Origin: Polynucleobacter sp. HIN7
GTDB taxonomy: Bacteria > Pseudomonadota > Gammaproteobacteria > Burkholderiales > Burkholderiaceae
DNA: 64,000 nt
Assembly: GCF_030297595.1 (NCBI RefSeq)
Contig: NZ_AP028138.1
Span: forward strand, 868,001 to 932,000
Direction of reading: 5' to 3'
Shown: one piece after another, positions 17,181-35,219 of the stretch
Layout: each line of letters opens with the position of its first letter
How positions within the stretch are numbered: the stretch's first letter is position 1
The notes under the pieces: generated by a model
Told to the model about the DNA's origin: nothing
Seen by the model: only the letters and a program-made list of their open reading frames with translations
Databases searched by the model: none
Program-made: the position numbers and the translations under genes

Positions 17181-17210
17181 ATCTTTTTTAAACTCACCAG
17201 AGGAACTGGA

Positions 17211-17987: not shown

Positions 17988-18026
17988 AATCAATTTAGTT
18001 CGTTATTTTTCTTCAAAGGGATTGCT

Positions 18027-18926
18027 ATGAGTGCAAAGAAATTGGGTTTTGTTGGATTAGGCATTATGGGTTCACCAATGGCTGGTCATTTAATTAAGGG
18101 TGGTCATTCGGTCTATTTAGCAACCCGTAGCCAAGTACCCGAGGAGCTCATCAAGGCCGGCGGGATTGCCTGTAAGACCCCTGCCGAAGTGGCTCAACAT
18201 GCCGACATCATCTTCACAATGGTTCCTGATACACCCGATGTTGAAAAAGTTCTGTTTGGGGAGAACGGTATCGCGTCCGGAATTAGTAAAGGCAAGATTG
18301 TGGTGGATATGAGTTCCATCTCACCGATTGCGACCAAAGAGTTTGCTAAAAAGCTCAACGATCTTGGGTGTAACTATGTCGACGCCCCGGTATCGGGTGG
18401 TCAAGTAGGCGCACAAAACGCCACGCTCTCGATTATGGTTGGAGGAGACGAAGCGGTATTTAATCAAGTCAAGCCGCTTTTTGAGCTCATGGGTAAAAAC
18501 ATTAACCTAGTGGGTGGTAATGGAGCAGGGCAAACCGCAAAAGTGGCTAATCAAATCATTGTGGCTCTCAATATTGAGGCGGTTGGTGAGGCTCTCTTAT
18601 TTGCTGCTAAAGCAGGTGCTGATCCAGCTAAGGTTCGTCAAGCCTTGATGGGCGGCTTTGCAAGCTCGAAAATTTTGGAAGTGCATGGTGAGCGCATGGT
18701 CAATCGCACCTTTAATCCAGGCTTTCGGATTGAGTTGCATCAAAAGGATTTGAACTTGGCGCTTAGCAGTGCCAAAGCACTCGGCGTTTCATTACCCAAT
18801 ACGGCAACTGCCCAAGAGTTATTTAACTCCTGCGCAGCTCACGGTGGCAAGGCCTGGGACCATTCAGCCATGGTAAAGGCGCTCGAGACCTTAGCCAACT
18901 TTGAGATTGGACAAAAAGCAAACTAA
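18027..18926 (+). CDS. glxR: 2-hydroxy-3-oxopropionate (tartronate semialdehyde) reductase
   Basis: 299 residues. Reduces tartronate semialdehyde to D-glycerate with NAD(P)H. The Rossmann motif is GFVGLGIMGSPMAGHL, the substrate loop DAPVSGGQVGAQ, and the catalytic Lys is in GQTAKVANQI (about residue 171). It is the third gene of the gcl-hyi-glxR operon. A glycerate kinase is not present in the window. Confidence 0.94.
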   Translation: MSAKKLGFVGLGIMGSPMAGHLIKGGHSVYLATRSQVPEELIKAGGIACKTPAEVAQHADIIFTMVPDTPDVEKVLFGENGIASGISKGKIVVDMSSISPIATKEFAKKLNDLGCNYVDAPVSGGQVGAQNATLSIMVGGDEAVFNQVKPLFELMGKNINLVGGNGAGQTAKVANQIIVALNIEAVGEALLFAAKAGADPAKVRQALMGGFASSKILEVHGERMVNRTFNPGFRIELHQKDLNLALSSAKALGVSLPNTATAQELFNSCAAHGGKAWDHSAMVKALETLANFEIGQKAN

Positions 18927-20477: not shown

Positions 20478-21209
20478 ATGAATCCAAGCATCCTCAAAGT
20501 AAAAGTCTGGCGGGGCACCGATGACGGTGAGTTTGTAGAGTACGACGTGCCACGTGCCGCCAATCAAACAGTATTGGACGTAGTTACCTACATCCAACGC
20601 AAAATTGACCCAACTCTAAGCTATCGTTTTGCATGTCGTGTAGGAATGTGCGGCTCCTGTGCGATGACGGTGAACGGTAAAGCACGTTGGACCTGCCGTA
20701 CTCATGTTGCCAAAATTGCAGATCAAAATACGCTTGAGATTGCGCCTCTCGATAATCTACCCATCATCAAAGACCTGGCCACCGATATGCGCGAGTTCTT
20801 TGACAAGATGAGTAAGGCGGTGGGTTACTTTAAAGGTGATAAAACCCGATTTGATGATTTTGCACAAGTCAAACCAGATTCAGAGGAGCGTCAATTGGCG
20901 AATGCTGGTATTGAGTGCATTGGTTGTGGGGTTTGCTACGCCTCGTGTGAGGTGGTCTCATCACGTGATAGTTATTTAGGTCCAGCCGCCCTCAATCGTG
21001 CCTGGACCCTAGTGAACGATGAACGCGATACCCAGCAACTGGATCGCTTGCGTGCGGTCGCTGGGGATGCAGGATGTCATTCATGCCATACGCAAGGTAC
21101 CTGCTCAGAGCGCTGCCCTAAACAGATTGAGCCAACCGCTGGTATTGCAGGATTGAAAAAGATGGTTGGTCGTGCAGCAGTTAGGGGTAGCAAATGGGGC
21201 AAACTGTAA
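20478..21209 (+). CDS. Succinate dehydrogenase/fumarate reductase-type iron-sulfur subunit
   Basis: 243 residues from the ATG at 20478. The N-terminal ferredoxin domain holds the [2Fe-2S] ligands in CRVGMCGSC and the following WTCRT. The C-terminal domain has CIGCGVCYASC and CHSCHTQGTCSERCP for the [4Fe-4S] and [3Fe-4S] clusters. It passes electrons between the flavoprotein (encoded last in the operon) and the membrane anchors (encoded next). Subunit order B-C-D-(ttdA-ttdB)-A is unusual. Confidence 0.9.
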   Translation: MNPSILKVKVWRGTDDGEFVEYDVPRAANQTVLDVVTYIQRKIDPTLSYRFACRVGMCGSCAMTVNGKARWTCRTHVAKIADQNTLEIAPLDNLPIIKDLATDMREFFDKMSKAVGYFKGDKTRFDDFAQVKPDSEERQLANAGIECIGCGVCYASCEVVSSRDSYLGPAALNRAWTLVNDERDTQQLDRLRAVAGDAGCHSCHTQGTCSERCPKQIEPTAGIAGLKKMVGRAAVRGSKWGKL

Positions 21210-21559
21210 TGACCAGCGGCGCGATTCTTCAGGCCAAACTTTGGTACTACCAACGCATCAGCGCCATGGTGCTTACGCTGTGTGTCGCAATCCATCTCGT
21301 AATTATCTATTACGCTATTCAGGATGGCCTAAGTGCTGGAGAAATCTTGGCGCGTACGCGAGGTAATCTTGCCTTTGCTCTTTTCTATGAGATCTTTGTT
21401 CTGGCTTGCTTTGTTCATGCGCCCATTGGCTTAGCAAATATTCTGCGTGAGAACATCCAAAGCGCATTTCTGATTCGGGCGCTTCCAATATTGCTTGCCG
21501 CATTCATCCTGATCCTGGGAACGGCTGCTGTTATTGGCGTAGTGTGGGGTGCGCCATGA
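21194..21559 (+). CDS. Succinate dehydrogenase/fumarate reductase-type membrane anchor subunit 1
   Basis: 121 residues with three transmembrane helices (about 25-46, 62-85, 95-118). His in CVAIHLVIIYY and in LACFVHAPIGL are candidates for heme b binding. The start overlaps the end of the iron-sulfur subunit gene by 16 bases, which indicates translational coupling. Confidence 0.82.
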   Translation: MGQTVMTSGAILQAKLWYYQRISAMVLTLCVAIHLVIIYYAIQDGLSAGEILARTRGNLAFALFYEIFVLACFVHAPIGLANILRENIQSAFLIRALPILLAAFILILGTAAVIGVVWGAP

Positions 21560-21918
21560 GCAAGGCGGGGCGTCGACTCGACTTTCGAACCAAGGCGCAT
21601 TGGTCTTACTTTGCCTATTACCTGCATCGCGTCTCTGGACTCTTGCTAGCGTGCTTTTTGCCACTGCACTTTTTTTTCCTCTCGCGCTCCCTGTACGGAG
21701 AAGCGGAACTGGGACGGTATCTGCAGTTTACCGACCATCCCATGGTCAAGTTTGGTGAATGGGGACTGGTGACTTTGTTAGCCCTTCATCTAATTGGCGG
21801 CACCCGTTTATTGGTGATCGAGTTTGGAATCTGGAAAGGCCTCCGAAAGGCCTGGGTGCAGGTGACCTTAATTGGCTCCTTAATTAGTGGAGCCTTGTTT
21901 TTAATTCTTTCTCGCTAA
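21556..21918 (+). CDS. Succinate dehydrogenase/fumarate reductase-type membrane anchor subunit 2
   Basis: 120 residues with three transmembrane helices. The block YYLHRVSGLLLACFLPLHFF is typical of SdhC-like cytochrome b subunits, and a further His lies in LALHLIGGTRLL. I chose the ATG at 21556, which overlaps the previous stop as ATGA; a GTG four codons upstream is less likely. Together with the preceding subunit it forms the quinone-reactive anchor. Confidence 0.83.
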   Translation: MSKAGRRLDFRTKAHWSYFAYYLHRVSGLLLACFLPLHFFFLSRSLYGEAELGRYLQFTDHPMVKFGEWGLVTLLALHLIGGTRLLVIEFGIWKGLRKAWVQVTLIGSLISGALFLILSR

Positions 21919-21930
21919 GGCGAATCATTT

Positions 21931-22806
21931 ATGGAACTGAACCTGCAACACGTTGAAGATGCATGCAAAGAGCTTTACATCCGGGCCTTGAAATTATTAC
22001 CTGACGATATTAAAGAGGGAATTAACGATCTCAAACAGAAAGAGCGCGATGCTCGCGCGCAAGTGGTGCTGGAGACGATGGTCACGAATATTGCCGTGGC
22101 AGAACGTGAAGATAATCTGCTTTGTCAAGATACGGGATTGCCAATCTATAACGTTTGGATTGGTCGAGATGTTCAATTTGATGGAGTCCAGCTGAAGCAG
22201 GCGATTCGAAAGGGCTGTGAGCGGGCCACAACGGAATACCCCTTACGCTCATCCGTTGTGCACCCCATCACCCGAAAAAATAATCACACCTCCACTGGTA
22301 TTGACATGCCAGCAATTCATATTGATTTTATGGATAAGCCCGGCGTGATTGAGATTGAAATGATTCCCAAGGGCAGTGGCTCGGAGAATAATTCGTTTCT
22401 GAAGATGGCCATTCCAGCTGAAGGAATCTTAGGAGTTAAAGCATTTGTCATTGAGAGCGTTGTCAACGCTGGCGGTAAGACCTGTCCACCGACCATTGTT
22501 GGTGTTGGGGTGGGCGGCACATCCGACCAATGCGTGGCACTTGCAAAGCGCGCTGCTACTCGGCCGCTTGGCACTATTTGCAGTGATGCGGAAGGCGCCC
22601 AGTTGGAGAAGGAGCTAAGTACCGCAGTCAATCAACTCGGAATTGGTCCCCAGGGACTTGGTGGTGATGGTACAGCGTTTGCAGTGCATGTGGAATTGGC
22701 GGCTACGCATATCACCATGAACCCTGTTGCAGTCAATATGCAATGCCACTCGGCTCGACGCGCGCGGGCATCGATTGGATCACACGGTATTGAATACGGC
22801 TTTTAA
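21931..22806 (+). CDS. Class I fumarase / tartrate dehydratase, alpha subunit
   Basis: 291 residues, the N-terminal half of a class I iron-sulfur hydro-lyase. The three cluster-binding cysteines are visible in LLCQDTGLP (Cys65), GGKTCPPT and NMQCHSARR. Two-subunit members include fumarases and L-tartrate dehydratase (TtdAB). Placement inside a fumarate/succinate oxidoreductase operon favours fumarate-malate chemistry, but tartrate or a related diacid cannot be excluded. Confidence 0.85.
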   Translation: MELNLQHVEDACKELYIRALKLLPDDIKEGINDLKQKERDARAQVVLETMVTNIAVAEREDNLLCQDTGLPIYNVWIGRDVQFDGVQLKQAIRKGCERATTEYPLRSSVVHPITRKNNHTSTGIDMPAIHIDFMDKPGVIEIEMIPKGSGSENNSFLKMAIPAEGILGVKAFVIESVVNAGGKTCPPTIVGVGVGGTSDQCVALAKRAATRPLGTICSDAEGAQLEKELSTAVNQLGIGPQGLGGDGTAFAVHVELAATHITMNPVAVNMQCHSARRARASIGSHGIEYGF

Positions 22807-22814
22807 GGAAGATC

Positions 22815-23423
22815 ATGGCGCACTACAACCTAGCAACACCAGTCAGTGAGGGTGATATCCGCAAGTTGAGGATTAATGACACCGTTACCTTACAACAGAC
22901 CTTATTTGGTATCCGCGATGCAACGCAAATTCATTTATTTGATCGGGGACGAAAAACTAAATTTGATCTTCAGGGGCATGCTGTGATTCATACAGCACCC
23001 AATGTTCGTAAAGTGCCTATTAGTTCTGACTTCCCAGCGGGTTATGAGCCGATTTGCATTGGCACAACGACATCGGATCGAATGGAGCGGTTTACAGAAC
23101 CTCTCATGCGGGAATACGGGGTTCGCATGATTGTGGGTAAAGGTGGCTTACGGGAATCATCCGCAAAAGCGTTTGAGCAGTTCGGTGGCGTCTATCTTGC
23201 CATTATTGGTGGCACTGCGGCTCTTGAGACTACCTGGATTGACCAAATTGAGGACGTGGATCTCGATGACCTAAACCCTGAATCACTCTGGAAGTTCAAA
23301 ATTAATCAATTTGGTCCTTTGTTAGTGGCGATGGACAGCCACGGGGGCAGCATCTATCAAGAAGTGAAATCCGATGTTGCAAGTAACAAAGAAGCGGTAC
23401 TTAAAAGCTTAGGCATTGTCTAA
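22815..23423 (+). CDS. Class I fumarase / tartrate dehydratase, beta subunit
   Basis: 202 residues, the C-terminal (swivelling) domain of the same enzyme. It has GYEPICIGTTTSDRM, the MIVGKGGL loop, and IGGTAALE and WKFKINQFGPLLVAMDS near the end. It follows the alpha gene by 8 bases with an AAGGAAG site. The partner subunit is required for activity. Confidence 0.86.
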   Translation: MAHYNLATPVSEGDIRKLRINDTVTLQQTLFGIRDATQIHLFDRGRKTKFDLQGHAVIHTAPNVRKVPISSDFPAGYEPICIGTTTSDRMERFTEPLMREYGVRMIVGKGGLRESSAKAFEQFGGVYLAIIGGTAALETTWIDQIEDVDLDDLNPESLWKFKINQFGPLLVAMDSHGGSIYQEVKSDVASNKEAVLKSLGIV

Positions 23424-23440: not shown

Positions 23441-25162
23441 ATGTCATCGATTGAAACCATTCAAACTGATATCTTGGTCCTAGGCTCCGGCGGGGCAGGT
23501 CTCTTTGCAGCTTTGCATGCGCATCAAGCCAACCCAAATTTGCATATTACGATTGCAGTAAAAGGTCTTTTGGGCAAATGCGGTTGCACTCGTATGGTTC
23601 AAGGCGGCTATAACGTTGCGCTGGCCGAGGGTGATTCGGTTGAACGCCACTTTATGGACACCATCGAGGGTGGCAAATGGCTATCTGATCAAGAGCTCGC
23701 TTGGACCTTGGTGACTAAATCGGTTGAACGAATTCATGAGCTCGAGAATGAATTGGGCTGCTTCTTTGATCGCAACCCTGATGGCACGATTCATCAAAAA
23801 GCATTTGCTGGACAAACCTTCGATCGTACGGTTCATAAGGGCGATCTCACTGGAATTGAAATCATTAATCGCTTGGCAGAGCAAGTTTGGGCTCGTGGAA
23901 TTCATCGCTTAGAGGAACATCGTGCGATCGAATTAATTAAAAGCACCGACGGTAAAGCAATTGCTGGAGTATTAATGCTCAATATGCGCACTGGTCAATT
24001 TGTGATGGTGCGTGCTAAGGCAGTCTTATTGGGAACCGGTGGCGGCCCCACGATGTATAAATACCATACCCCATCGGGTGATAAAAGCTGTGATGGATTG
24101 GCCATGGCCCTTCGAGCAGGATTGACGCTGCGCGATATGGAAATGGTGCAGTTTCATCCAACTGGAATGTTGGCTGGCCCCGATACGCGTATGACCGGAA
24201 CGGTTTTGGAGGAGGGCTTACGAGGAGCGGGTGGTTACCTACTAAACGGTAATCAAGAGCGCTTTATGGGTAACTACGATCCACGCAATGAGCGCGCCAC
24301 ACGTGATATTGTCTCGCGCTCGATTTACTCCGAAATGCGCGCTGGGCGGGTTAGCCCAAATGGTGGGGTTTATATTCAGATGCATCATCTGGGGCCCGAC
24401 AATGTTCGTAAATTGTTCAAAGGAATGGTCGAGCGTTGTGCCGACTCGGGATTTGATTTGGCAGGAGGATTGGTTGAAGTTGTTCCCACCGCCCATTACA
24501 TGATGGGTGGAGTGGTGTTCCACGCGGACACTAGTACGGATCTGCCTGGCCTATTTGCTGCTGGTGAAGATACCGGTGGCGTACATGGTGCGAACCGATT
24601 GGGCGGCAATGGTGTTGCAAACTCCACAGTATTTGGTGGGATTGCCGGCGATACGATGGCGCGCTATGTATCCGATCGAGAGTTCTTGGAATTTGATCCC
24701 GTAATGATCGAACAAAGTATTGCGATACATCGCAAACCACTAACACAAGCCCAAGGGGATATTGAGTTCATTCGCGATGAGTTGGCTGATTGCATGTGGG
24801 ATCAGGTGGGTATCTTACGTAATCGCAAGGATTTAGAAGCGGCCCGGGAACGCTTAGATCGCTTAGATCAAATGTTGCAAACCATGGGAGTGGGTGATAC
24901 CAACCCTGCATTTAATCTTACATGGCAGGATTGGATGAATTTACGTAATCTATTGCTAGTTAGCAAAACTGTTGTAGGGGCTGCCATCGCTCGCGAGAAC
25001 TCTCGGGGGGCGCATTATCGTGAGGACTACCCTGAAGAAGGCGACCTGGAGACTTCCTACTATACGGCTGTGCAAATGGTTGGCGATCAATTAACGATCG
25101 ATAAAAAACCTGTGATATTTAGCATGGTCAAACCAGGCGAAACTATTTTGGTGGAGGCATAA
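23441..25162 (+). CDS. Fumarate reductase/succinate dehydrogenase-type flavoprotein without the FAD-linking His
   Basis: 573 residues. The FAD-binding fold starts LGSGGAGLFAAL; the substrate domain has QFHPTG, EGLRGAGGYL and AHYMMGGV, and the FAD C-terminal motif is LFAAGEDTGGVHGANRLGGN. By eye alignment on the QGG block, the His that carries covalent FAD in SdhA/FrdA is Cys49 here (GKCGCTRMVQGG). FAD is therefore probably bound non-covalently, as in aspartate oxidase. The operon with iron-sulfur and membrane subunits still argues for a quinone-linked complex acting on fumarate, succinate or a similar diacid. Confidence 0.85.
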   Translation: MSSIETIQTDILVLGSGGAGLFAALHAHQANPNLHITIAVKGLLGKCGCTRMVQGGYNVALAEGDSVERHFMDTIEGGKWLSDQELAWTLVTKSVERIHELENELGCFFDRNPDGTIHQKAFAGQTFDRTVHKGDLTGIEIINRLAEQVWARGIHRLEEHRAIELIKSTDGKAIAGVLMLNMRTGQFVMVRAKAVLLGTGGGPTMYKYHTPSGDKSCDGLAMALRAGLTLRDMEMVQFHPTGMLAGPDTRMTGTVLEEGLRGAGGYLLNGNQERFMGNYDPRNERATRDIVSRSIYSEMRAGRVSPNGGVYIQMHHLGPDNVRKLFKGMVERCADSGFDLAGGLVEVVPTAHYMMGGVVFHADTSTDLPGLFAAGEDTGGVHGANRLGGNGVANSTVFGGIAGDTMARYVSDREFLEFDPVMIEQSIAIHRKPLTQAQGDIEFIRDELADCMWDQVGILRNRKDLEAARERLDRLDQMLQTMGVGDTNPAFNLTWQDWMNLRNLLLVSKTVVGAAIARENSRGAHYREDYPEEGDLETSYYTAVQMVGDQLTIDKKPVIFSMVKPGETILVEA

Positions 25163-25209: not shown

Positions 25210-26190
25210 TTATTGACTTAAATTGCGAGCCTTCACAATCTTTTCCCAGTTTGCACCTTCTTTTTTAATCTGAGCTGCGAATTCTTGTGGTGTATTAAGA
25301 ACCGGGGTTAAGCCAGCACCTTCAACGCGTGCCTTGAACTCAGGGTTCTTAAAGGCTTCTAGAGTTGAGCGATAAATTTTGTCGACAATCGCGTTGGGTG
25401 TGCCAGAAGGGACCACCAAACCAAACCAACCCGTGTTTTCAAAACCAGGAATTGTTTCTGCAATGGTAGGTACGTCTGGTAATTGTGGAACACGTTTCGT
25501 ACTGGTAACGCCCAGAGGACGAATCTGCCCCGATTTTGCAAACCCAGTCGCAGCAGTTAAGTTACCCACCATAAAATCAATTTGACCAGCAACCAAGTCG
25601 TTTAATGCTGCAGATTCACCCTTGTAAGGAACGTGGGTGGCATTGATGCCAGCAGCATAGGTAAAGTTTTCACCCGCCATATGCACTTGGCTACCAATAC
25701 CTGCAGAACCAAAGTTGAGGTTCTTGGTTTTAGCCAATGCAATTAATTCCTTAACGTTCTTCGCAGGCACCTTTGGGTTTACCGATAGAAGCATTGGGCC
25801 GCTTGCGACATTGGTTATAACCTTGAAATCCTTGTCGTAATCGATTGGCAATTTCTTATAAAGGTAGGGATTTACGGTCAACATACTGCCTGAAGCCAGC
25901 ATGATGGTGTATCCATCGGCAGGGGACTTAGCTACTAAATCCGCAGCGATATTGCCTCCCGCACCGCCTTTGTTCTCCACAATCACGTTTTGTTTCCACT
26001 CGGTGCTTAATTGCTGGGCCAACAAACGACCCAAAATATCGGTTGTACCACCAGCAGCAAAGGGAATCACAAGCTTTACAGGCTTATCAGGCCAGCTTTG
26101 CGCCTGAATCGAAGGGCTTGTGAACGCGATCGAACTGGCCGCCACAAGACCCAAGGCAAACTTCATACGACTAAGTACGGTTTTATACAT
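25210..26190 (-). CDS. Bug/TctC-family periplasmic receptor, candidate sulfolactate-binding protein
   Basis: 326 residues with signal peptide (cleavage near SIQAQ, about residue 31). Family blocks are WPDKPVKLVIPFAAGG, VENKGGAGGN, PADGYTIMLAS, LNFGSAGIGSQVHMAGE and LPDVPTIAE. It is divergent from the sulfolactate genes with 90 bases between starts. In Chromohalobacter a tripartite tricarboxylate transporter (slcHFG) serves the same pathway, so sulfolactate is a reasonable ligand guess. The membrane subunits are absent from the window. Confidence 0.87.
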   Translation of the reverse strand: MYKTVLSRMKFALGLVAASSIAFTSPSIQAQSWPDKPVKLVIPFAAGGTTDILGRLLAQQLSTEWKQNVIVENKGGAGGNIAADLVAKSPADGYTIMLASGSMLTVNPYLYKKLPIDYDKDFKVITNVASGPMLLSVNPKVPAKNVKELIALAKTKNLNFGSAGIGSQVHMAGENFTYAAGINATHVPYKGESAALNDLVAGQIDFMVGNLTAATGFAKSGQIRPLGVTSTKRVPQLPDVPTIAETIPGFENTGWFGLVVPSGTPNAIVDKIYRSTLEAFKNPEFKARVEGAGLTPVLNTPQEFAAQIKKEGANWEKIVKARNLSQ

Positions 26191-26280: not shown

Positions 26281-27222
26281 ATGGATATGTCTAATATTTT
26301 CATCTCGGAATTCATTACGAGTCAAGCCCTAGAAACCCTTAAGGTTCGGCATATGGTTATTTATCAGCCAGATGCCTATCAAGACCCAAAGCAAATGGCT
26401 GATTCCTTGGTCAGCGCCGATGCCTGGATTGTGCGAAATCTAAGCAAAGTTTCGAAGGAATTGGTCGAAGGAGCCAAGCAGTTGAAGGTGGTTGGTCGCT
26501 TAGGCGTTGGCCTTGAGAATATTGATTTACATGCCTGTGCTGAGCGAGGCATTCGGGTGATCCCGGCCACCGGTGCGAATGCTGAGTCGGTAGCCGAGTA
26601 TGTGCTTGGCACTGCGATGGCACTCATGCGCTCGTATCGCGAGGCCACGTTAGAAACTCTCGCAGGAAAATGGCCCAGACCGACTTACTCCAAATGCCAC
26701 GAAATTGCTGGTAAAACAATTGGCATCGTCGGATTTGGGAGTATTGGTCGTGTCGTTGCTGAAAAAGCACTCGCGCTGGGAATGCGCTGCATTGCCTACG
26801 ATCCTTTCATTAAACAATCCTCTATTGCCATAAAGGGTGGGGATGTCGTAATGCGCTCGCTATCGGAAGTACTTGCAAATAGCCAAATTGTTAGCCTGCA
26901 TCTGCCATTACTCCCTGAGACTAAGGGTCTATTCAATCAGAATTTGCTCAACCAGATTCAAGAAGGTGCTTATCTAATTAATACAGCTCGTGGCGGCATT
27001 GTGGATGAGCTAGCGCTCGCACAGTCTTTGAAATCCGGCAAGCTCGGTGGAGCAGCGCTAGATGTGTTTGCGCTTGAGCCCGCAAAGGACCTTAGTCATT
27101 TTATTGGTGTGCCGAATTTAATTCTGACGCCACATGTAGCAGGCGTTACCGAAGAAAGCAATGATCGTGTGAGCACCATGATTGCCCGAGAAGTTAATCT
27201 ATTTTTGGAGAAGAATACGTGA
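26281..27222 (+). CDS. slcC: D-2-hydroxyacid dehydrogenase family, probable (S)-sulfolactate dehydrogenase
   Basis: 313 residues from the ATG at 26281 (another ATG two codons on). The open frame continues upstream into the Bug gene, but that part is non-coding. The NAD motif is GIVGFGSIGRVVAE. Catalytic Arg, Glu and His sit in NTARGGIVDE, ALDVFALEP and LTPHVAG. SlcC oxidises (S)-sulfolactate to 3-sulfopyruvate. The specific name rests on the neighbours comC, suyA and suyB; sequence alone gives only the family. Confidence 0.75.
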   Translation: MDMSNIFISEFITSQALETLKVRHMVIYQPDAYQDPKQMADSLVSADAWIVRNLSKVSKELVEGAKQLKVVGRLGVGLENIDLHACAERGIRVIPATGANAESVAEYVLGTAMALMRSYREATLETLAGKWPRPTYSKCHEIAGKTIGIVGFGSIGRVVAEKALALGMRCIAYDPFIKQSSIAIKGGDVVMRSLSEVLANSQIVSLHLPLLPETKGLFNQNLLNQIQEGAYLINTARGGIVDELALAQSLKSGKLGGAALDVFALEPAKDLSHFIGVPNLILTPHVAGVTEESNDRVSTMIAREVNLFLEKNT

Positions 27223-28229
27223 GTCATTCATTTCAGGAGCTAGTACAACTTGCTTATCAGGGCTTATGTGCCGCTGGAGTTAAACATGAGGCAGCAGCAG
27301 ATACCGCCTTATTTTTAGCCTTAGCAGAGATTGATGGATTAGCCTCTCATGGCCTAGCACGGGTTGCACAGTATTCGGGGCATGCTAAACATCAGCGAAT
27401 TAATACTCAAGCAGTCATTAAGACGCATCCCTATAAATCCTCGGCAGCATTAGTTGACGGTCAAGATGGTCTTGCATTTCCTGCGCTGAAGTACGCAACA
27501 GATCTTTCAGTAAATCTTGCACATCGCCATGGCGTTGGCTTGGTGGCAATTAAGAACACCCATCATTTTGGTGTTGCGGGTCACTATACAGAAGCCGCAG
27601 CTAGAGCTGGATACATCTCGATTTTGCTCGGTAACACCCCTGCGGCAATGCCGATGGCTGGCGGCACCAAAGCGGTCTTCGGAACCAATCCACTGGCTGC
27701 TGCCTTTCCAGTTCAGGGCAAGGATCCTTTGGTCATTGATATGTCACTCTCTGCAGTGGCGCGAGGCAAATTATTAGTGGCATCCAAAAAAGGGGAGTCA
27801 ATTCCATTGGGTTGGGCTCTAACTGCTGACGGCCAGCCCACCACCGATCCGAATGAAGGTCTTAAGGGTTTAATGGTTCCGCTCGGTGGTGATAAAGGTG
27901 CGTTATTGGCACTCATCATCGAACTACTTGCAGTTGGTTTATCGGGAAGTCAGTACTCGTATGAAGCTGATAGCTTCTTTTCAATGAAGGGTAATAAGCC
28001 ACGATTAGGTCAGCTCATCATCACGATTGATCCTGGTCTGCCAGGTAAGGGTGTCTACCGCAATCGTATGCTTGACTTACTAAACACCTTTGCAAGTGAT
28101 ATGGGTGTGCGATTACCTGGACAACGTCGCTTTGCCGTACGCCAAAAGGCAATGAAGGCTGGAGTTGTGGTCAATGAAGCAGTATTGCAAGAGATTCAGA
28201 ATGGCATTCAAAGCCGTTGGAATAGTTAA
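27219..28229 (+). CDS. comC: Malate/L-lactate dehydrogenase (Ldh_2) family, probable (R)-sulfolactate dehydrogenase
   Basis: 336 residues. The catalytic His lies in KNTHHFGVAGHYTE, with cofactor-binding TKAVFGTNPLAAAFP and VIDMSLSAVARGK. ComC reduces 3-sulfopyruvate to (R)-sulfolactate, so with SlcC it inverts the stereocentre. The start overlaps the slcC stop by 4 bases (GTGA), a sign of coupled translation. Other family members act on malate, ureidoglycolate or related acids; the context decides the call. Confidence 0.76.
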   Translation: MSHSFQELVQLAYQGLCAAGVKHEAAADTALFLALAEIDGLASHGLARVAQYSGHAKHQRINTQAVIKTHPYKSSAALVDGQDGLAFPALKYATDLSVNLAHRHGVGLVAIKNTHHFGVAGHYTEAAARAGYISILLGNTPAAMPMAGGTKAVFGTNPLAAAFPVQGKDPLVIDMSLSAVARGKLLVASKKGESIPLGWALTADGQPTTDPNEGLKGLMVPLGGDKGALLALIIELLAVGLSGSQYSYEADSFFSMKGNKPRLGQLIITIDPGLPGKGVYRNRMLDLLNTFASDMGVRLPGQRRFAVRQKAMKAGVVVNEAVLQEIQNGIQSRWNS

Positions 28230-28256
28230 TAAGTCAATCTTTAAAGGAGAGAAAGC

Positions 28257-28538
28257 ATGATTCACTTTGTCGTACATGAACCCGGAGATGTGGTGGGTGT
28301 CGTAGTAGTGGAGGGCGTGAAAGCCGGTAATGACCTAACAGGGTGGGTGATGGACGGCGATACCACCCTGAACATTAAATCCGAGAGCGATATTCCGATT
28401 GGTCACAAGATCTCATTAAAAGATTTAAAGGTCGGTGATACCGTGATCAAGTACGGAATTGATATTGGCAAAGTAGTCGCCCCAATTAAAAAGGGCGAAC
28501 ATTTGCACGTTCAAAACGTCAAGACAAAGCGCTGGTAA
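28257..28538 (+). CDS. suyA: (R)-sulfolactate sulfo-lyase, alpha subunit (SAF domain)
   Basis: 93 residues, a single SAF domain like the N-terminus of altronate dehydratase. The pattern PGDVVGVVVVEGVKAG, SESDIPIGHKISLKDLK, GDTVIKYGIDIGKV and GEHLHVQNVKTKRW matches SuyA as I know the family. It is a separate small polypeptide, as in SuyAB, rather than part of one chain of about 495 residues. A strong AAAGGAGAG site precedes it. Confidence 0.84.
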   Translation: MIHFVVHEPGDVVGVVVVEGVKAGNDLTGWVMDGDTTLNIKSESDIPIGHKISLKDLKVGDTVIKYGIDIGKVVAPIKKGEHLHVQNVKTKRW

Positions 28539-28586
28539 TCGATTAGCCAACTGATTAACTAATTTTTTGATTGAGAGAAAGAACAA

Positions 28587-29759
28587 ATGATTGATTTGAA
28601 AAAAGCGACCTTTATGGGATATCGTCGTGAAAATGGACGTATGGGTATTCGTAATCACGTAATTATTTTGCCCCTTGATGATTTGTCGAATGCGGCCTGC
28701 GAGGCGGTAGCAAACAATATCAAGGGCACCATGGCAATCCCACATCCTTATGGGCGTTTGCAGTTTGGTGCTGATCTAGAACTCCATTTCCGCACCCTGA
28801 TCGGCACTGGCTGCAATCCCAATGTGGCTGCAGTTGTGGTGATTGGAATTGAGCCCCAGTGGACCAATACCGTAGTTGAGGGGATCAAGAAATCAGGTAA
28901 GCCTGTTGAAGGATTCTGGATTGAAGGCAATGGTGATACAGCGACCATTGCTGCTGCAAGCAAAGCTGCCTACAAGATGATGAAGCACGCATCGAAGTTA
29001 CAGCGTGTCTCTGCACCCTTGTCTGAGCTCTGGGTCTCTACCAAATGCGGTGAATCCGACACCACCTCAGGTTGCGGTGCCAACCCGACCGTTGGCAATG
29101 CCTTCGATAAGCTCTATGACATTGGCTCTACTTTGGTGTTTGGTGAAACCACTGAATTAACCGGCGGTGAGCATCTAGTAGAAGCGCGTTGCCGTACCCC
29201 TGAAATCAAAGCGAAGTTCAAACAAGTCTTTGATCGTTACCAAGATGTGATTGAGCGTCACAAAACCAGTGATCTTTCTGACTCACAACCAACCAAAGGA
29301 AATATTGCCGGTGGCCTAACAACTATTGAAGAAAAAGCACTAGGTAATATTCAAAAGATTGGTAAAAAGTGCATGATTGATGGCGTATTGGATAAAGCCG
29401 AAACCCCAACTGGTAAAGGTCTGTACTTTATGGATTCCTCATCAGCGGCTGCTGAGATGGTGACCCTATGTGCAGCCGCGGGGTATGCAGCCCATTTTTT
29501 CCCAACCGGACAGGGCAATGTGATTGGTAACCCTATTCTTCCAGTGATTAAGCTATGCGCAAATCCAAAAACAGTACGTACGATGTCTGAGCACATTGAC
29601 GTCGATGTTTCTGGAATCTTGCGCCGCGAGGAAAACATGGATACCGCCGGAGAGAAATTATTAGATTGCCTCTTGCGAACTGCGAATGGCGAGCTAACCG
29701 CTGCTGAGATTTTGGGTCATCGCGAGTTTGTTCTCACTCGCTTATACGAATCGGCCTAA
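28587..29759 (+). CDS. suyB: (R)-sulfolactate sulfo-lyase, beta subunit
   Basis: 390 residues, UxaA/GarD C-terminal family. With SuyA it cleaves (R)-sulfolactate to pyruvate and sulfite, probably using an iron centre. Blocks [83 protein letters not shown] and [10 protein letters not shown] agree with the SuyB pattern I recall. Conserved Cys in GTGCNPN and TKCGESD may bind metal. It follows suyA by 48 bases. Confidence 0.84.
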
Positions 29760-29769
29760 TTTGTCCCAT

Positions 29770-29795
29770 GGGCCATTCAGACGTCTGACTGGCCC
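29770..29795. promoter_or_regulatory. 26-base near-perfect palindrome between suyB and the GntR gene
   Basis: The arms GGGCCA/TGGCCC and the core TCAGACGTCTGA are both perfectly self-complementary; only one base pair of the 26 is mismatched. It ends 8 bases before the regulator ATG and is not followed by a T-run, so it is not a normal terminator. It may be an autoregulatory operator or an mRNA hairpin covering the ribosome-binding region. Confidence 0.5.
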
Positions 29796-29803
29796 GGATT
29801 GGT

Positions 29804-30523
29804 ATGAAAGCAATTACTGCGTATCAAGAAGTAAAACAGAAGATCACGGGCGATATCGTCCGTGGTCGTTACTTTATGGGCGAGGCCCTGCCTGCTGAAA
29901 AGGAGTTGGCAAAAGAGCTGAAGGTATCAATTGGCACTCTCCGCAAAGCAGTGGATGAGCTTGTATCAGAAGGTATTGTGATTCGACGGCAAGGGAAGGG
30001 CACCTTTATTGCCGAGCATGACGAACAGCGCTTGTTGTATTACTTCTTTCATGTGATTAAGCATGACGCTGACCACAAAAAATATCCAACGGTTGAATTA
30101 GTCTCGTTCCAAAGTGCAAGCGCAAATAGCGAAGAAGCAAAAAAGCTTCAACTAAAAGAGGGTTCGCCAGTATGGCGGATTGTCAATCGCCTCTCACTAG
30201 ATGGTCAATGCGTCATCGTCGATCGCCTTACGCTCAGCAAAGAGCGATTTCCAACCTTGACTCGAAGTGCTTTTCAGCATCGTGAGGGCAGTATTTATCA
30301 GTTGTATCAGGCCCAATATGGACAAGTGGTTGCGCGAACCAGTGAGCGATTACGAGCCGGTGCAGCAAGTAAACAAGATGCTGAATGGCTTCACTTAAAG
30401 GTTGGTGACCCCGTAATTGTGATTCGTCGTCTAGCGATTGGAATGCAAGACGAGCCGATTGAGTGGCGAGTCTCAACCCTAAATACCCAGCATTACGAGT
30501 ACTTCAGCGAACTAGGGACTTAA
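29804..30523 (+). CDS. GntR/HutC-family regulator of the sulfolactate operon
   Basis: 239 residues. The winged helix-turn-helix (about 5-70) has LPAEKELAKELKVSIGTLRKAVDEL and IVIRRQGKGTFIA. A UTRA ligand-binding domain follows (about 92-235), with PVWRIVNRLSLDGQ and RLRAGAAS. It is the last gene of the operon, 44 bases after suyB, and its stop overlaps the convergent membrane-subunit gene. A HutC-type ligand could be sulfolactate or sulfopyruvate; this is inferred. Confidence 0.85.
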   Translation: MKAITAYQEVKQKITGDIVRGRYFMGEALPAEKELAKELKVSIGTLRKAVDELVSEGIVIRRQGKGTFIAEHDEQRLLYYFFHVIKHDADHKKYPTVELVSFQSASANSEEAKKLQLKEGSPVWRIVNRLSLDGQCVIVDRLTLSKERFPTLTRSAFQHREGSIYQLYQAQYGQVVARTSERLRAGAASKQDAEWLHLKVGDPVIVIRRLAIGMQDEPIEWRVSTLNTQHYEYFSELGT

Positions 30524-31476
30524 GCAATACGCTGGTAATACAGATTTTGTGGGTGGTTGGATTCAGCAAAAAATAGCCAGCGCTCTGCCATTAGACCAAG
30601 CAGATGCACTAAAAACGCTACGATAATTAAATTTAAGCTAGCTTGACTTGCCGCAAATACCAGTAGGGTAACTGGAAGCAGATAAGCCCCAAAAAATGCC
30701 AGCTTGCGAACATTGGCGACAAAGAAATTGGATTGCTGATGAAAAAACTCACGCGTATTAAAACTACCACCCATCATTCCCATCGAAATTTGTCGAACGG
30801 GGCCTTGCTGGATTCCGGTCGCCGACTGCAAGGTTGATTTTGGCTTAAGGCTGCGATTTCGTTTCCAGATCCAGAGTTTCAGAGTGAGCGATAGCAACAG
30901 TAAGAATCCGGTAAAACCAGTCACACCAGCAATGTTTTGAGAGGTGACGATAGCTTGTTCAGGTAGCCATGCTGACCAAATGGTAAATAGGGTCATTAGC
31001 AAAAACCATCCTGAAGCAAACCCAAGTGCAATGAAATTAACCATGGTCATCGGATGGGCCCACTCTTGAATAAACCGAATGCATTGGTAAATCATGGCAG
31101 TGCACACCCACAGAAGAACTGCAAAAATACCGAGTAACATCCACAGCCAATTGGGAATCGAACCCATTTGCCAGGAGTAAATATAGGCTAGAACTGTGAG
31201 GGCGATGAAACTTGGTAATACCAACACCTCACGCGAGAGCCAGGAAGTTCTCCACATCAAAATGGCGCGCCATGCACGCTCTGGATGCCCCAGATGAAAA
31301 AATGAGGCGAGTAATCCACCAGCCAATAGCAATAGCACGATTGGAAAAGCCAGGTAGTTCATGAAGTGACTGGGCAATGGATCACCTGCTAGATGCAAAA
31401 CGAGAAGGCTCATCACCATACCCTGAGCCATACCGGCCATACCGGTAAAGAAGATGAGTGAGAAAGCGGGATGCAT
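30520..31476 (-). CDS. soeC: DmsC-like membrane anchor, probable SoeC of sulfite dehydrogenase
   Basis: 318 residues with about eight transmembrane helices and the N-terminal HPAFSLIFFTGMAGMAQGM typical of DmsC/SoeC anchors. The motif FHLGHPERAWRAI is the DmsC family signature. It passes electrons to quinone. It overlaps the soeB stop region by one base. The anchor is DmsC-type and not NrfD-type, which fits SoeABC better than polysulfide or tetrathionate reductases. Confidence 0.75.
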   Translation of the reverse strand: MHPAFSLIFFTGMAGMAQGMVMSLLVLHLAGDPLPSHFMNYLAFPIVLLLLAGGLLASFFHLGHPERAWRAILMWRTSWLSREVLVLPSFIALTVLAYIYSWQMGSIPNWLWMLLGIFAVLLWVCTAMIYQCIRFIQEWAHPMTMVNFIALGFASGWFLLMTLFTIWSAWLPEQAIVTSQNIAGVTGFTGFLLLLSLTLKLWIWKRNRSLKPKSTLQSATGIQQGPVRQISMGMMGGSFNTREFFHQQSNFFVANVRKLAFFGAYLLPVTLLVFAASQASLNLIIVAFLVHLLGLMAERWLFFAESNHPQNLYYQRIA

Positions 31477-32126
31477 TAGTTTTCTGCCTTTACAGCCGCA
31501 ATGGTTTCAGTAATCGAGCGGGGCAAGTAGTGATTGGCTGGTTGGGTCTGCCATTCAGGCATTAAACCGTATCCACCTCGTTGGGCAATCGCCTTACTGG
31601 CATCTGACTCTGGATCATGTACATCACCAAAGATCCGAGCGCTGGTTGGACAAGCTAAAACGCAAGCTGGCTTACGCTCTGACTCTGGTAGGGTCTCGCT
31701 ATAGATGCGATCGACACATAAGGTGCATTTGGTCATCACCTGCCGGTCCTCATCGAGCTCACGAGCTCCATACGGGCAAGCCCAAGCACAATACTTACAA
31801 CCGATGCACTTGTCATAATCAACCAGCACAATGCCATCTTCTTTGCGCTTATAGCTAGCTCCGGTTGGGCAAACGGGCACGCATGGTGGATCCTCACAAT
31901 GTAAACAGGATTTCGGGAAATGCACGGTCTCCATTTTTGGAAATACACCAGCCTCAAACGTTTGGACCCGATTAAAAAAGGTGCCGCTGGGATGAGCGCC
32001 GTAAGGATCTTGATCGGTCATCGGGCCAGCTGATCCCTGCGTATTCCATTCTTTGCATGAGGTAACGCATGCATGGCAGCCCACGCACACATTTAAATCA
32101 ATTACGAGTGCTAACTGTTTACTCAT
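31476..32126 (-). CDS. soeB: Four-cluster ferredoxin subunit, probable SoeB
   Basis: 216 residues with four Cys groups for [4Fe-4S] clusters: CVGCHACVTSC, CLHCEDPPCVPVC, CIGCKYCAWAC, and CTLC with CVLAC. No signal peptide is present, so the protein is cytoplasmic. It links the molybdenum subunit to the membrane anchor. The start overlaps the end of soeA by 8 bases. Confidence 0.82.
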   Translation of the reverse strand: MSKQLALVIDLNVCVGCHACVTSCKEWNTQGSAGPMTDQDPYGAHPSGTFFNRVQTFEAGVFPKMETVHFPKSCLHCEDPPCVPVCPTGASYKRKEDGIVLVDYDKCIGCKYCAWACPYGARELDEDRQVMTKCTLCVDRIYSETLPESERKPACVLACPTSARIFGDVHDPESDASKAIAQRGGYGLMPEWQTQPANHYLPRSITETIAAVKAEN

Positions 32127-35031
32127 TCGGCTTCTTAATTTCGTACGATGATAGTTTGAGCATGCCAGGAACTTCTTTGGCTTGTGCCGCTGGCCAAGTA
32201 TCTAGATTTTCACTTGATCCAGCAGGGGATATCTTGACGCGCACATCGTACCATCCCGCTTGACCAGTAATCGGATCTGAATTGCTGACACGGAAGCTGC
32301 CCTCGCGTGTGCCCATGGGCAGCTCTTCGGTAATTAAATGATTAAGTAGGAAGCCCTTCTTAGACTCATCCGCATTAGGATCAAGATGCCATGCGGATTC
32401 TGCTTTACCAATGGCATTCCAAGTCCAAACAGTCCCAGTTTCAACAGCCTGGGTATGACGGGCCATGCAGCGTACTTTGCCCCATTGGGATTCCACCCAA
32501 ATCCAAGCGCCGTCCTCAATACCATGATCAATGGCCGTAGCTGCATTAATAAACAGGAAGTTATGACTGTGGATTTGTCGTAACCAGGCATTTTGTGAGT
32601 CCCACGAGTGATACATCGCCATCGGCCGTTGCGTAATGGCGTTGATGGAGTACTCGTCTAAATTAGTAACCGCATCCTCCAAAGGTGGATACCAAAAGGG
32701 CAGCGGATCAAAAAATTGGATGATCCGTTCTTTGAGGTGATCCGGCGGTACGCGACCGGGGCGTTGGCCTTTGGCAGCCAGTCGAAACTGTTGAACGATA
32801 TCTGAATACACCGCCAAAATAATCGGATCGTTCTTTTGCCGTAAGGCGTTGGCTTTGGCAAAGTCTAAATAGCCTTGGTTCCAGTTACGCATGTATTGAT
32901 GTTCGGGGGGCATGCTGTAGTGAAAAACACAATTATTTTCTTGGTAGCGCTCCCATTGGTTGGGATTCGGTTCACCACGAATACTTTTATCACCATCCTT
33001 GCCGCGCCAACCCATTAAGAACCCAATACCTGAATCGGGTGCCGTCTGGAAGTTGGTAATGAAGTCGGGATAATCCTTGAACTTTCTTTGTCCATCCGCG
33101 GTTGTGAACGCAGGGAACTTTAAGCGGGAGGCAAGCTCAATTAAGACATCTTGAAAAGGTTTGCATTGTCCGGTCGGCGGCAAAACTGGGATACGTACTG
33201 AATCGCATGGCCCGTCAAATTCAGAGATAGGGCGATCCAACATACTCATTGCATCGTGGCGCTCAAGATAGGTCGTGTCAGGAAGCACGAGATCAGCAAA
33301 GGCCACCATCTCCGATTGAAATGCATCACAAATCACAAGAAATGGAATCTTGAACTGTCCATTTTCATCTTTAGCATTGAGATGCTGTCTAACTTCCATG
33401 GTGTTCATCGTGGAGTTCCATGACATATTGGCCATGAAAATCATTAAGGTATCAATCGAATAGGGATCGCCTTTGACAGCATTAGTAATAACGTTATGCA
33501 TCAATCCATGAGCGGCTAAAGGGTGCTCCCAGGTATAAGCCTTGTCAATACGTAAAGGCTTACCATCCTGATCAAGTGCCAGATCTTCTGGGCGAGTTGG
33601 CCAACCAAGCGGTGCTTTTGCTAATGGCGTATTGGCTTGAATATCGTTTTCAGAAGAGGGCGGTTTGATGTTCGGAGGAATCTGGCGAGGGTAGGGGGCT
33701 TTATGACGAAACCCACCTGGACGATCAATGGTGCCGAGTAGAGTCATTAATACAGCTAAGGCACGCGTGGTTTGAAAGCCGTTGGAGTGTGCAGATAAGC
33801 CACGCATCGCATGAAATGCCACAGGCCGTCCGGTTACCGATGTATGCTGCTGACCAAAGGAATCGGTCCAAGCAATTGGTAATTCAAATGATTGCTTAAA
33901 TGCGGTGTGCGCCATTTCCTTGGCCAGTAAGCGAATGCGTGCCGCTGGAATCGAGGTAATTTTCTCGGCCCACTCGGGCGTGCAAGTCTTAACTTGACGA
34001 CGCAATAATTCAAATGCAGGGGCAACCCGCTTGCCCTGATGGGGGCCGGGACCCATGACATACTCGCCTGATAGGGCAGGGTCAACATCATTTGCAAAAC
34101 AGGCTTTTGCAGCATTGCTTTTGATGTCCCAAATGTATTTGTTATGAGGAATGTCGGTATTAATTGGATCCGACTCAGGATCAAATAAAAATAATCCTTC
34201 TTCAGGACCCGCATCAAGACAAACCAACTGCGATGAGTTGGTATACCGCTTTAAGAATGGATGATCGACTTGATTGGATGCAATTAACTCATGCATCAAA
34301 GCCATGAATAGCGCGCCATCAGTACCCGGTTTAATTGGAATCCATTCATCGGCGATCGCTGAATAACCAGTTCGTACGGGATTAATTGAAATGAATCGCC
34401 CACCATTGCGCTTGAACTTCGACAACGCAATCTTCATTGGATTGCTATGATGATCCTCCGCAGTGCCAATCATCACAAATAATTTGGCTCGCTCTAAATC
34501 GGGACCGCCAAACTCCCAAAAGCTACCCCCAATGGTGTAAATCATGCCCGCGGCCATATTGACCGAACAAAAACCTCCGTGGGCTGCATAGTTAGGAGTG
34601 CCAAATTGACGAGCAAATAAGCCTGTAAGAGCTTGCATTTGATCGCGTCCAGTAAACAGTGCAAATTTTTTGGGATCGGTTTCTCGGATACCTCGTAAAC
34701 GATCTTCCAAAATACTAAAGGCTCGTTCCCAAGAGATTTCTTCAAACTCCGATTGGCCGCGCTCTGAACCTGGCTTACGTAAGAGTGGCTTCGTGATCCG
34801 CGCAGGGGACTTCTGCTTCATGATGCCCGATGCACCCTTGGCACAAATGACCCCCTGATTCAGCGGATGATTTGGATTGCCATCAATATAGACCAGTTCG
34901 CCATCCCGCAAATGCGCTCGGATGCCACAGCGGCAAGCGCACATATAGCAGGTCGTGGTTTTTACCTCAGTCGCCGAGTTTTGCGAATGGATCGGATCGT
35001 GAACTGGTTGGGAGGATAGGAATTTGAACAT
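32119..35031 (-). CDS. soeA: Molybdopterin oxidoreductase, probable sulfite dehydrogenase SoeA
   Basis: 970 residues from the ATG at 35031, the size of known SoeA (a longer reading from 35082 is possible). An N-terminal [4Fe-4S] site is formed by Cys28, Cys31, Cys35 and Cys63 (CYMCACRC, VICAKG). A Cys in HGGFCSVN is a candidate Mo ligand. The enzyme is DMSO-reductase family with a C-terminal molydopterin-dinucleotide domain. There is no twin-arginine signal, so it faces the cytoplasm, where SuyAB releases sulfite. The order soeA-soeB-soeC is conserved. Other cytoplasmic-facing DMSO-family enzymes remain possible. Confidence 0.75.
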   Translation of the reverse strand: MFKFLSSQPVHDPIHSQNSATEVKTTTCYMCACRCGIRAHLRDGELVYIDGNPNHPLNQGVICAKGASGIMKQKSPARITKPLLRKPGSERGQSEFEEISWERAFSILEDRLRGIRETDPKKFALFTGRDQMQALTGLFARQFGTPNYAAHGGFCSVNMAAGMIYTIGGSFWEFGGPDLERAKLFVMIGTAEDHHSNPMKIALSKFKRNGGRFISINPVRTGYSAIADEWIPIKPGTDGALFMALMHELIASNQVDHPFLKRYTNSSQLVCLDAGPEEGLFLFDPESDPINTDIPHNKYIWDIKSNAAKACFANDVDPALSGEYVMGPGPHQGKRVAPAFELLRRQVKTCTPEWAEKITSIPAARIRLLAKEMAHTAFKQSFELPIAWTDSFGQQHTSVTGRPVAFHAMRGLSAHSNGFQTTRALAVLMTLLGTIDRPGGFRHKAPYPRQIPPNIKPPSSENDIQANTPLAKAPLGWPTRPEDLALDQDGKPLRIDKAYTWEHPLAAHGLMHNVITNAVKGDPYSIDTLMIFMANMSWNSTMNTMEVRQHLNAKDENGQFKIPFLVICDAFQSEMVAFADLVLPDTTYLERHDAMSMLDRPISEFDGPCDSVRIPVLPPTGQCKPFQDVLIELASRLKFPAFTTADGQRKFKDYPDFITNFQTAPDSGIGFLMGWRGKDGDKSIRGEPNPNQWERYQENNCVFHYSMPPEHQYMRNWNQGYLDFAKANALRQKNDPIILAVYSDIVQQFRLAAKGQRPGRVPPDHLKERIIQFFDPLPFWYPPLEDAVTNLDEYSINAITQRPMAMYHSWDSQNAWLRQIHSHNFLFINAATAIDHGIEDGAWIWVESQWGKVRCMARHTQAVETGTVWTWNAIGKAESAWHLDPNADESKKGFLLNHLITEELPMGTREGSFRVSNSDPITGQAGWYDVRVKISPAGSSENLDTWPAAQAKEVPGMLKLSSYEIKKPNE

Positions 35032-35219
35032 GCAGCGACTTATAGTTATCTCTGAATTGTAGCGACATTTCAGTGAATTCACAGGTATTACAGCACCATT
35101 TGTTTTATAAATTCATGATTGAAATCAATGATTTGAAGATATTCTTGGATAGTTACCGTAAAGCTCATTTTATGAGCCTTTAATGAACCACAATGATCTC
35201 TCAAAACAAGGAGAGGGTC
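35032..35219. other. Spacer upstream of soeA and the small ORF
   Basis: AT-rich divergent spacer that should hold the soeA promoter. A short hairpin GCTCAT-TTT-ATGAGC lies at 35163-35177. No gene or RNA is recognised. The rest of the soeA-to-HNH gap holds the 31-codon frame at 35220-35315 and then about 130 bases with nothing identified apart from the HNH ribosome-binding site. Confidence 0.5.

Follow-up and report, generated by a model that had tools for sequence, protein, structure and literature searches.

The sulfolactate sulfo-lyase SuyAB cleaves (R)-sulfolactate (PMC12421959, PMC6278857, PMC12890257). In the SlcC-ComC-SuyAB system of Chromohalobacter salexigens and Paracoccus wurundjeri (PMC12421959), two dehydrogenases of unrelated fold are encoded beside suyA and suyB, the lyase is split into two chains and sulfite is the product. 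The HpsNOP-SuyAB pathway of Cupriavidus pinatubonensis, which degrades 2,3-dihydroxypropane-1-sulfonate (DHPS), uses a lyase of the same family. We describe here a suyAB locus in the single-contig genome (1,795,157 bases) of Polynucleobacter sp. HIN7, within a window of 64,000 nt (contig positions 868001-932000), by which we mean the whole stretch of DNA analysed. In this locus the slcC-comC-suyAB set is joined to soeABC-like genes and to a gene module resembling succinate dehydrogenase (SDH, complex II) and fumarase, and the operon probably encodes the later steps of a longer route for C3-sulfonates, one that starts from 3-sulfopropionate.

3-Sulfopropionate is made by gut Enterococcus, is excreted by Burkholderia and Cupriavidus, and serves Bilophila as an electron acceptor (PMC11489063) by a mechanism that has been called unclear (PMC12890257). 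According to Chen et al. 2024 (PMC11489063), its bacterial degradation was previously unreported, apart from a thesis (J. Mayer) cited for a route in Roseovarius nubinhibens that leads through sulfoacrylate to sulfolactate. That route involves the same three compounds as the one proposed here, and no genes are named where that paper cites it; R. nubinhibens is described as degrading sulfolactate via sulfopyruvate and Xsc, not SuyAB (PMC6278857). No genes for sulfoacrylate formation from 3-sulfopropionate were met in the literature searched, whose coverage leaves out most subscription journals and includes some papers only in part. The present locus supplies candidate genes for this breakdown, along with a one-residue signature by which they can be spotted in genomes, and would place a whole sulfonate-to-sulfate chain in Polynucleobacter. 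Members of this genus are common in freshwater plankton and have small genomes.

A complex II and fumarase look-alike beside the sulfolactate genes

An initial annotation of this DNA had proposed a complete sulfolactate racemisation and desulfonation operon of four adjacent genes, followed by a regulator gene. The open reading frame (ORF) list and Pfam domains bear out slcC-comC-suyA-suyB-gntR at 26281-30523, with all five ORFs found on the + strand, co-directional and tightly packed. The core of that reading holds but is incomplete, since the set as a whole extends past this interval to the SDH-like and fumarase-like module, a TctC gene and the soeABC-like genes. The module, also on the + strand, begins with an SdhB-like iron-sulfur subunit (20478..21209; TIGR00384 194 bits, cut-off 88; PF13085), whose ATG start lies within a longer ORF opening at 20355. 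It continues with an Sdh membrane anchor-like subunit (21194..21559; TIGR02968 33.5 bits, cut-off 41.8; PF01127 24.7 bits, cut-off 25.8) and an Sdh cytochrome b-like subunit (21544..21918; TIGR02970 57.6 bits, cut-off 52.3). The alpha subunit of a type I hydratase, FumA/TtdA-like and a proposed 3-sulfoacrylate hydratase, follows at 21931..22806 (TIGR00722 286 bits, above cut-off; PF05681), and its FumB/TtdB-like beta subunit, with a TTSDRM motif, at 22815..23423 (TIGR00723 139 bits, cut-off 145; PF05683 above cut-off). The last gene, at 23441..25162, encodes an SdhA-like flavoprotein, proposed to be a 3-sulfopropionate dehydrogenase subunit.

3-Sulfopropionate, 3-sulfoacrylate and 3-sulfolactate are succinate, fumarate and malate with one carboxylate swapped for sulfonate, and under the Cahn-Ingold-Prelog rules (S)-malate corresponds in space to (R)-sulfolactate. 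The presence of complex II and fumarase look-alikes beside sulfolactate genes suggests 3-sulfopropionate as the input. Judged by gene context, analogy and a changed substrate pocket, the likelier course of the pathway runs from 3-sulfopropionate through sulfoacrylate and (R)-sulfolactate to pyruvate and sulfite. A quinone-linked SdhBCDA-like complex would oxidise 3-sulfopropionate to 3-sulfoacrylate, and the type I FumAB-like iron-sulfur hydratase would add water to give 3-sulfolactate. SuyAB, assigned to its family by phylogeny, would split the (R) form into pyruvate and sulfite, and a SoeABC-like enzyme would oxidise the sulfite to sulfate, passing electrons to quinone. SlcC and ComC would invert (S)-sulfolactate imported from outside.

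With complex II the module shares four subunits and the catalytic Arg and His residues; the SdhA-like protein differs in its separate clade, in Glu for Thr254, in a loop insert and in lacking the flavin adenine dinucleotide (FAD)-linking His. In a 40-row tree its clade was split from SDH, fumarate reductase and NadB at 100/100, with a program warning that long branches meet there. A pocket alignment was made of 63 SdhA-like rows, close relatives among them, after L092 had been dropped for lack of a usable SdhA-like ORF (residues are numbered as in E. coli SdhA). Glu stands at the Thr254 position in 63/63 rows, against Thr in 20/20 true SdhAs of relatives. An insert of 5-6 residues between His242 and residue 254, present in none of the 20 true SdhAs, bears Thr-Arg or Thr-Lys, or Ala-Arg in one row (Rhodococcus jostii RHA1), and Cys occupies the His45 position in the 62 rows reaching that site, where all 20 true SdhAs have His. 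The R286 equivalent, H242 and H354 are conserved in all 63 rows and R399 in the 62 that reach it. We take Arg286, His242, His354 and Arg399 to be the catalytic residues of E. coli SDH, Thr254 to be a substrate-pocket residue and His45 to be the point of covalent FAD attachment. The window genome encodes another SdhA-type protein (contig positions 957395-959116, 34%), which groups with E. coli SdhA, and a true SdhA was also present in 20/20 tested relatives; to judge from sequence, the SdhA-like protein is not the citric-acid-cycle enzyme.

The surroundings of the two kinds of gene were compared at 20 SdhA-like loci, comprising all 8 phylum matches outside the family and 12 of the 26 family matches, picked from linked and unlinked cases; these relatives are not independent of each other, so that P values for such comparisons are descriptive, and later typing added the remaining 14 family loci. 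FumA and FumB genes lay beside the SdhA-like gene at 20/20 loci and beside the true SdhA gene at 0/20. TauE was found at 11/20 against 0/20, and at least one of SuyB, TauE, a sulfate exporter, sulfite oxidase and SoeA at 13/20 against 0/20.

The module is inherited along with suyB. In the genus set of 40 genomes (39 plus the window's own; SdhA-like proteins called at E<=1e-120), full-length SuyB of the clade was found in 11, the SdhA-like protein occurred in those same 11, and by listed positions all pairs were at most 8.4 kb apart; 28 of the 40 were without both. One genome (G094, locus L212) keeps remnants, namely SdhB, FumA, FumB, a partial SdhA-like gene and pieces of SlcC and SuyB, and its locus seems to have been lost as a unit. 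Elsewhere in the family, the SdhA-like protein occurs in 26 genomes; clade SuyB accompanies it in 24 of them (as a partial match in G219 and G233), and in 16/26 the two genes are at most 12 kb apart. On Methylobacterium plasmids the module is found together with TauE, suyAB and genes resembling slcC and comC. Two haloarchaeal plasmids (L127, L255) encode SdhA-like and SdhB-like proteins, TauE and a UxaA-type split pair; FumAB was not found on them, and a lyase of the ArgH/XcbC superfamily encoded nearby is possibly a non-homologous sulfoacrylate hydratase. On one of the two, an Ldh protein has sulfolactate dehydrogenase as its best family (340 of 500 bits). That the SDH-like genes are mere chance neighbours is made unlikely by this co-inheritance with suyB, together with the true-SdhA control.

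A further observation concerns L138/L208 (G264), where the suyB match is whole, FumA is matched over a short length and the sdhA-like gene contains an in-frame TAG (codon 78 of the match); the module there may be decaying, or the assembly may contain errors.

The split lyase and the flanking dehydrogenases

The initial annotation read the lyase as split, and this is borne out. A separate 93-aa SAF-domain protein, SuyA (28257..28538, + strand), adjoins the 390-aa catalytic subunit SuyB of UxaA C-terminal type (28587..29759, + strand; PF04295 and PF20629), as it adjoins suyB in relatives; its PF08666 match, at 20.8 bits, is 0.2 below the cut-off. In a 25-row tree, 20 SuyB rows lie on one side of a branch with 100/98 support, among them the window protein and an hpsN-linked protein of C. 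pinatubonensis HN-2, and E. coli UxaA and GarD fall outside on very long branches. The annotation's separation of SuyB from the sugar-acid dehydratases thus holds. The C. pinatubonensis homologue, 76% identical to the window SuyB, sits beside annotated hpsN and hpsO with suyAB linked. SuyB matches listed for 299 genomes of the family span 100% to 73% identity, and the next drop to 40%; haloarchaeal UxaA-like proteins (33-35% identity) stand outside the SuyB clade. These results support placing the window lyase in the SuyAB sulfolactate sulfo-lyase family, with the corresponding activity predicted from that membership. A contig labelled Thermoflexus (L037) looks mis-binned because its SuyB is 90% identical to that of the window, and one labelled Chitinophaga (L079, 78%) may be a further such case.

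As expected for an SlcC/ComC pair, genes for a D-2-hydroxyacid dehydrogenase and an Ldh_2 dehydrogenase adjoin suyAB. The SlcC-like gene (26281..27222, + strand; PF02826/PF00389) is suyAB-linked in relatives and has two in-frame ATG starts, at 26281 or 26287, the mechanical ORF beginning at TTG 26011. The comC-like gene (27219..28229, + strand; 336 aa; PF02615) overlaps it by 4 bases, and the best NCBIfam match of its product is L-sulfolactate dehydrogenase (NF040650), at 209.8 bits far below the cut-off of 500. The racemase role that the annotation gave to the pair is carried over by analogy from Chromohalobacter. Eighty named suyB loci, the best 80 of at least 585, were kept from a contig scan of relatives; the nearest among the matches listed include Polynucleobacter L033, L040, L042, L043, L046 and L047. 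Of these, L042 is from P. hirudinilacicola MWH-EgelM1-30-B4 and L046 from P. campilacus MWH-Feld-100. A Chromohalobacter record was absent from these best 80, the nearest stand-ins being Halomonas salina (L096) and Sinorhizobium mexicanum (L114).

Differing in this from the SlcC-ComC-SuyAB system, some related loci are missing slcC: it was not found at the locus in 3/10 fetched genus relatives (L203, L206, L208), nor at the named loci L040 and L047. SlcC may be dispensable when the input is 3-sulfopropionate, because the geometry of (S)-malate corresponds to (R)-sulfolactate, the SuyAB substrate.

DHPS was considered as substrate and rejected, since a route through HpsN is unlikely when the best HpsN match in the window genome is a HisD-like protein at 33%, a point on which the locus also differs from the HpsNOP-SuyAB pathway. 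Free sulfolactate or 3-sulfopropionate fits better. One Burkholderiaceae sequence variant has been proposed as a secondary consumer of sulfoquinovose products (PMC13372026), which is compatible with a sulfoquinovose-derived substrate here and is not specific to it. A literature search for Polynucleobacter together with sulfolactate returned no match.

Two hydratase types and competing explanations

The window FumA-like protein aligns with E. coli TtdA and FumA at the three Cys common to both, and with its two subunits and TT..RM motif the window hydratase has the features of the class I fumarases and L(+)-tartrate dehydratases (TtdAB), which are likewise two-subunit iron-sulfur enzymes. It differs in adjoining an SdhA-like gene and in having a second type among its relatives: FumB shows TTS.RM in type I and TATASFRF in type II. 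The listing used for the pocket alignment has 39 of type I in total. Outside the genus, 34 loci were selected by their SdhA-like protein, 26 of them in the family and 8 elsewhere in the phylum, and they divide into 17 of each type. SuyB lay in the fetched stretch at 15/17 type I loci, the other two being near contig ends, against 1/17 type II loci; that one (G196, L263) has suyB, slcC and comC all within 20 kb. A malonate-semialdehyde-type dehydrogenase (MMSDH) was found at 0/17 type I and 9/17 type II loci, 7 of the 9 in one genus (g3) and a partial match in M. nodulans (L128) being excluded from the count by the length threshold. The type I module of Rhodococcus jostii RHA1 is about 19 kb from suyB; in Paracoccus versutus, the distance from the type II module is about 5 kb for slcC/comC and about 19 kb for suyAB. 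Type II plasmid loci variously have SorT (above cut-off), annotated soxC, TauE and sulfate exporters, and the module of NT-26 is adjoined by genes for succinate semialdehyde dehydrogenase (SSADH)-like and sulfolactaldehyde-reductase-like proteins. An amidohydrolase gene after type II FumAB was observed in L190 and L263 (Amidohydro_2) and, as annotated, in L128. Pseudomonas sp. MPC6 is another carrier of a type II FumAB.

It is conceivable, and we offer it tentatively as a rather doubtful extension, that the succinate-fumarate-malate arm of the citric acid cycle has a sulfonate counterpart among bacteria and haloarchaea, built around the Glu254-clade complex II look-alike as a dedicated 3-sulfopropionate dehydrogenase, with type I hydratases making sulfolactate for SuyAB and type II hydratases leading to malonate semialdehyde and sulfite without a lyase. 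Type II FumAB would add water at the sulfonate-bearing carbon, the product would split into malonate semialdehyde and sulfite, and an MMSDH-type enzyme would follow. The content of type II loci (MMSDH, sulfite genes, little suyB) allows such direct desulfonation and does not show it. Two points weigh against it: roseobacters, R. nubinhibens included, may simply hand sulfolactate over to different enzymes, and the place of MMSDH-type enzymes could be earlier in the route, with a sulfonated aldehyde as substrate. Should R. nubinhibens have a type II hydratase and form sulfolactate, as the cited thesis reportedly states, a route to malonate semialdehyde would not hold in that organism.

Several observations weigh against the pathway from 3-sulfopropionate. 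Across 398 phylum genomes, the SdhA-like protein was found in 11, SuyB in 15 and both in 5, and in those outside the family the counts were 8, 11 and 2, the two pairs being on different contigs. A module gene is present at only 21/80 named suyB loci, some of the other stretches being short. Seven of the 20 SdhA-like loci were without any of the five sulfite and sulfonate genes sought, although an extra TauE reference brought up TauE in three of these, and a relative of HpsN is present at a fourth. As read from the alignment, the change from Thr254 to Glu argues against plain succinate and does not by itself argue for a sulfonate, and a Glu near an anion would be odd unless paired with the inserted Arg or Lys. 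Nor does the (R)-sulfolactate argument account for comC being kept where slcC is lost.

One competing account is that sulfolactate alone is degraded, by SlcC/ComC inversion and SuyAB cleavage, next to an operon of SDH-like and fumarase-like genes with another job. It draws on the 59/80 named suyB loci with no module gene in the stretch and on the fact that module and suyB can occur apart. We nonetheless consider it unlikely in view of the 11/11 co-occurrence and linkage in the genus, the suyB genes within reach of nearly all type I modules outside it, and the recurrence of this pairing in Methylobacterium, with a comparable arrangement in haloarchaea. The module might alternatively act on some other succinate-like compound, such as methylsuccinate or sulfosuccinate (which could yield oxaloacetate and sulfite by dehydrogenation and hydration). 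Conserved catalytic Arg and His with an altered distal pocket would suit this, as would type II modules that lie with sulfite dehydrogenases and exporters, mostly without suyB. Yet sulfosuccinate would leave no need for suyAB, slcC or comC alongside, methylsuccinate releases no sulfite, and the SSADH-like and sulfolactaldehyde-reductase-like genes by the NT-26 module match the aldehyde and the acid of a C3 sulfonate, so that we give this account a low probability.

We reject as highly improbable the explanation that this is an operon for degrading sugar acids, whose SuyAB acts as a dehydratase of the altronate/galactarate type. Its basis is that the sole NCBIfam match of SuyB (146 of 731 bits required) and the only solved relative found (6u7l) are both galactarate dehydratase. 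The hpsN-linked C. pinatubonensis protein has an equally weak match to the same NCBIfam family (152 bits), however, the tree places the window protein in the SuyB clade, and sulfite genes surround it. The pattern of the sugar-acid enzymes, a single chain with fused SAF domain and a score above the curated cut-off, is not seen in this split, low-scoring protein.

Candidate genes for uptake and sulfite disposal, and other genes

Of the genes that could bring the substrate of the proposed pathway into the cell, a single TctC-type periplasmic binding protein is encoded beside the operon (25210..26190, - strand; PF03401 236 bits), and a TctC gene likewise adjoins slcC/comC at the ten loci fetched from relatives in the genus (L202-L211). 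SlcHFG, a tripartite tricarboxylate transporter, has been assigned to sulfolactate (PMC5812351). In the window genome only TctC adjoins the operon, and both TctA genes found lie elsewhere, which differs from the SlcC-ComC-SuyAB system; TctC is probably the binding protein for the sulfonate taken up, possibly in an SlcH-like role. A GntR/UTRA regulator (29804..30523, + strand; 239 aa; PF00392, PF07702) closes the slcC-gntR set.

On the opposite strand, adjacent genes encode molybdopterin, iron-sulfur and DmsC-type subunits (30520-35082), as in SoeABC. They comprise a SoeC-like membrane anchor (30520..31476; PF04976 DmsC), a SoeB-like iron-sulfur subunit (31476..32126; Fer4 families) and a SoeA-like molybdopterin subunit (32119..35082; PF00384/PF04879/PF01568), a proposed sulfite dehydrogenase. 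The best NCBIfam match of the last is PhsA, under cut-off, and no SoeA model was among its NCBIfam matches. A SoeA-like gene is found in the window and in its nearest relative (L202), and near suyB in L197, L198 and Variovorax L057 and L072; the two Variovorax loci also have SoeB-like copies 80% identical to that of the window. SoxC occurs in 5/10 genus relatives (L204, L205, L207, L209, L210), each time accompanied by a YeiH-type exporter, and the SoxC of L204 scores above the curated cut-off.

Genes for a GlcD-like oxidase and a thiamine pyrophosphate (TPP) enzyme lie between the module and slcC at L204:7284-10338, and a related TPP enzyme was matched at L205, L207 and L209 and near the Methylobacterium and Sulfitobacter modules. 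Xsc was considered as the role of this enzyme and rejected, its Xsc scores being far below the cut-off. Elsewhere in the window, at 15390-18926, genes for glyoxylate carboligase, hydroxypyruvate isomerase and tartronate semialdehyde reductase represent ordinary glyoxylate assimilation.

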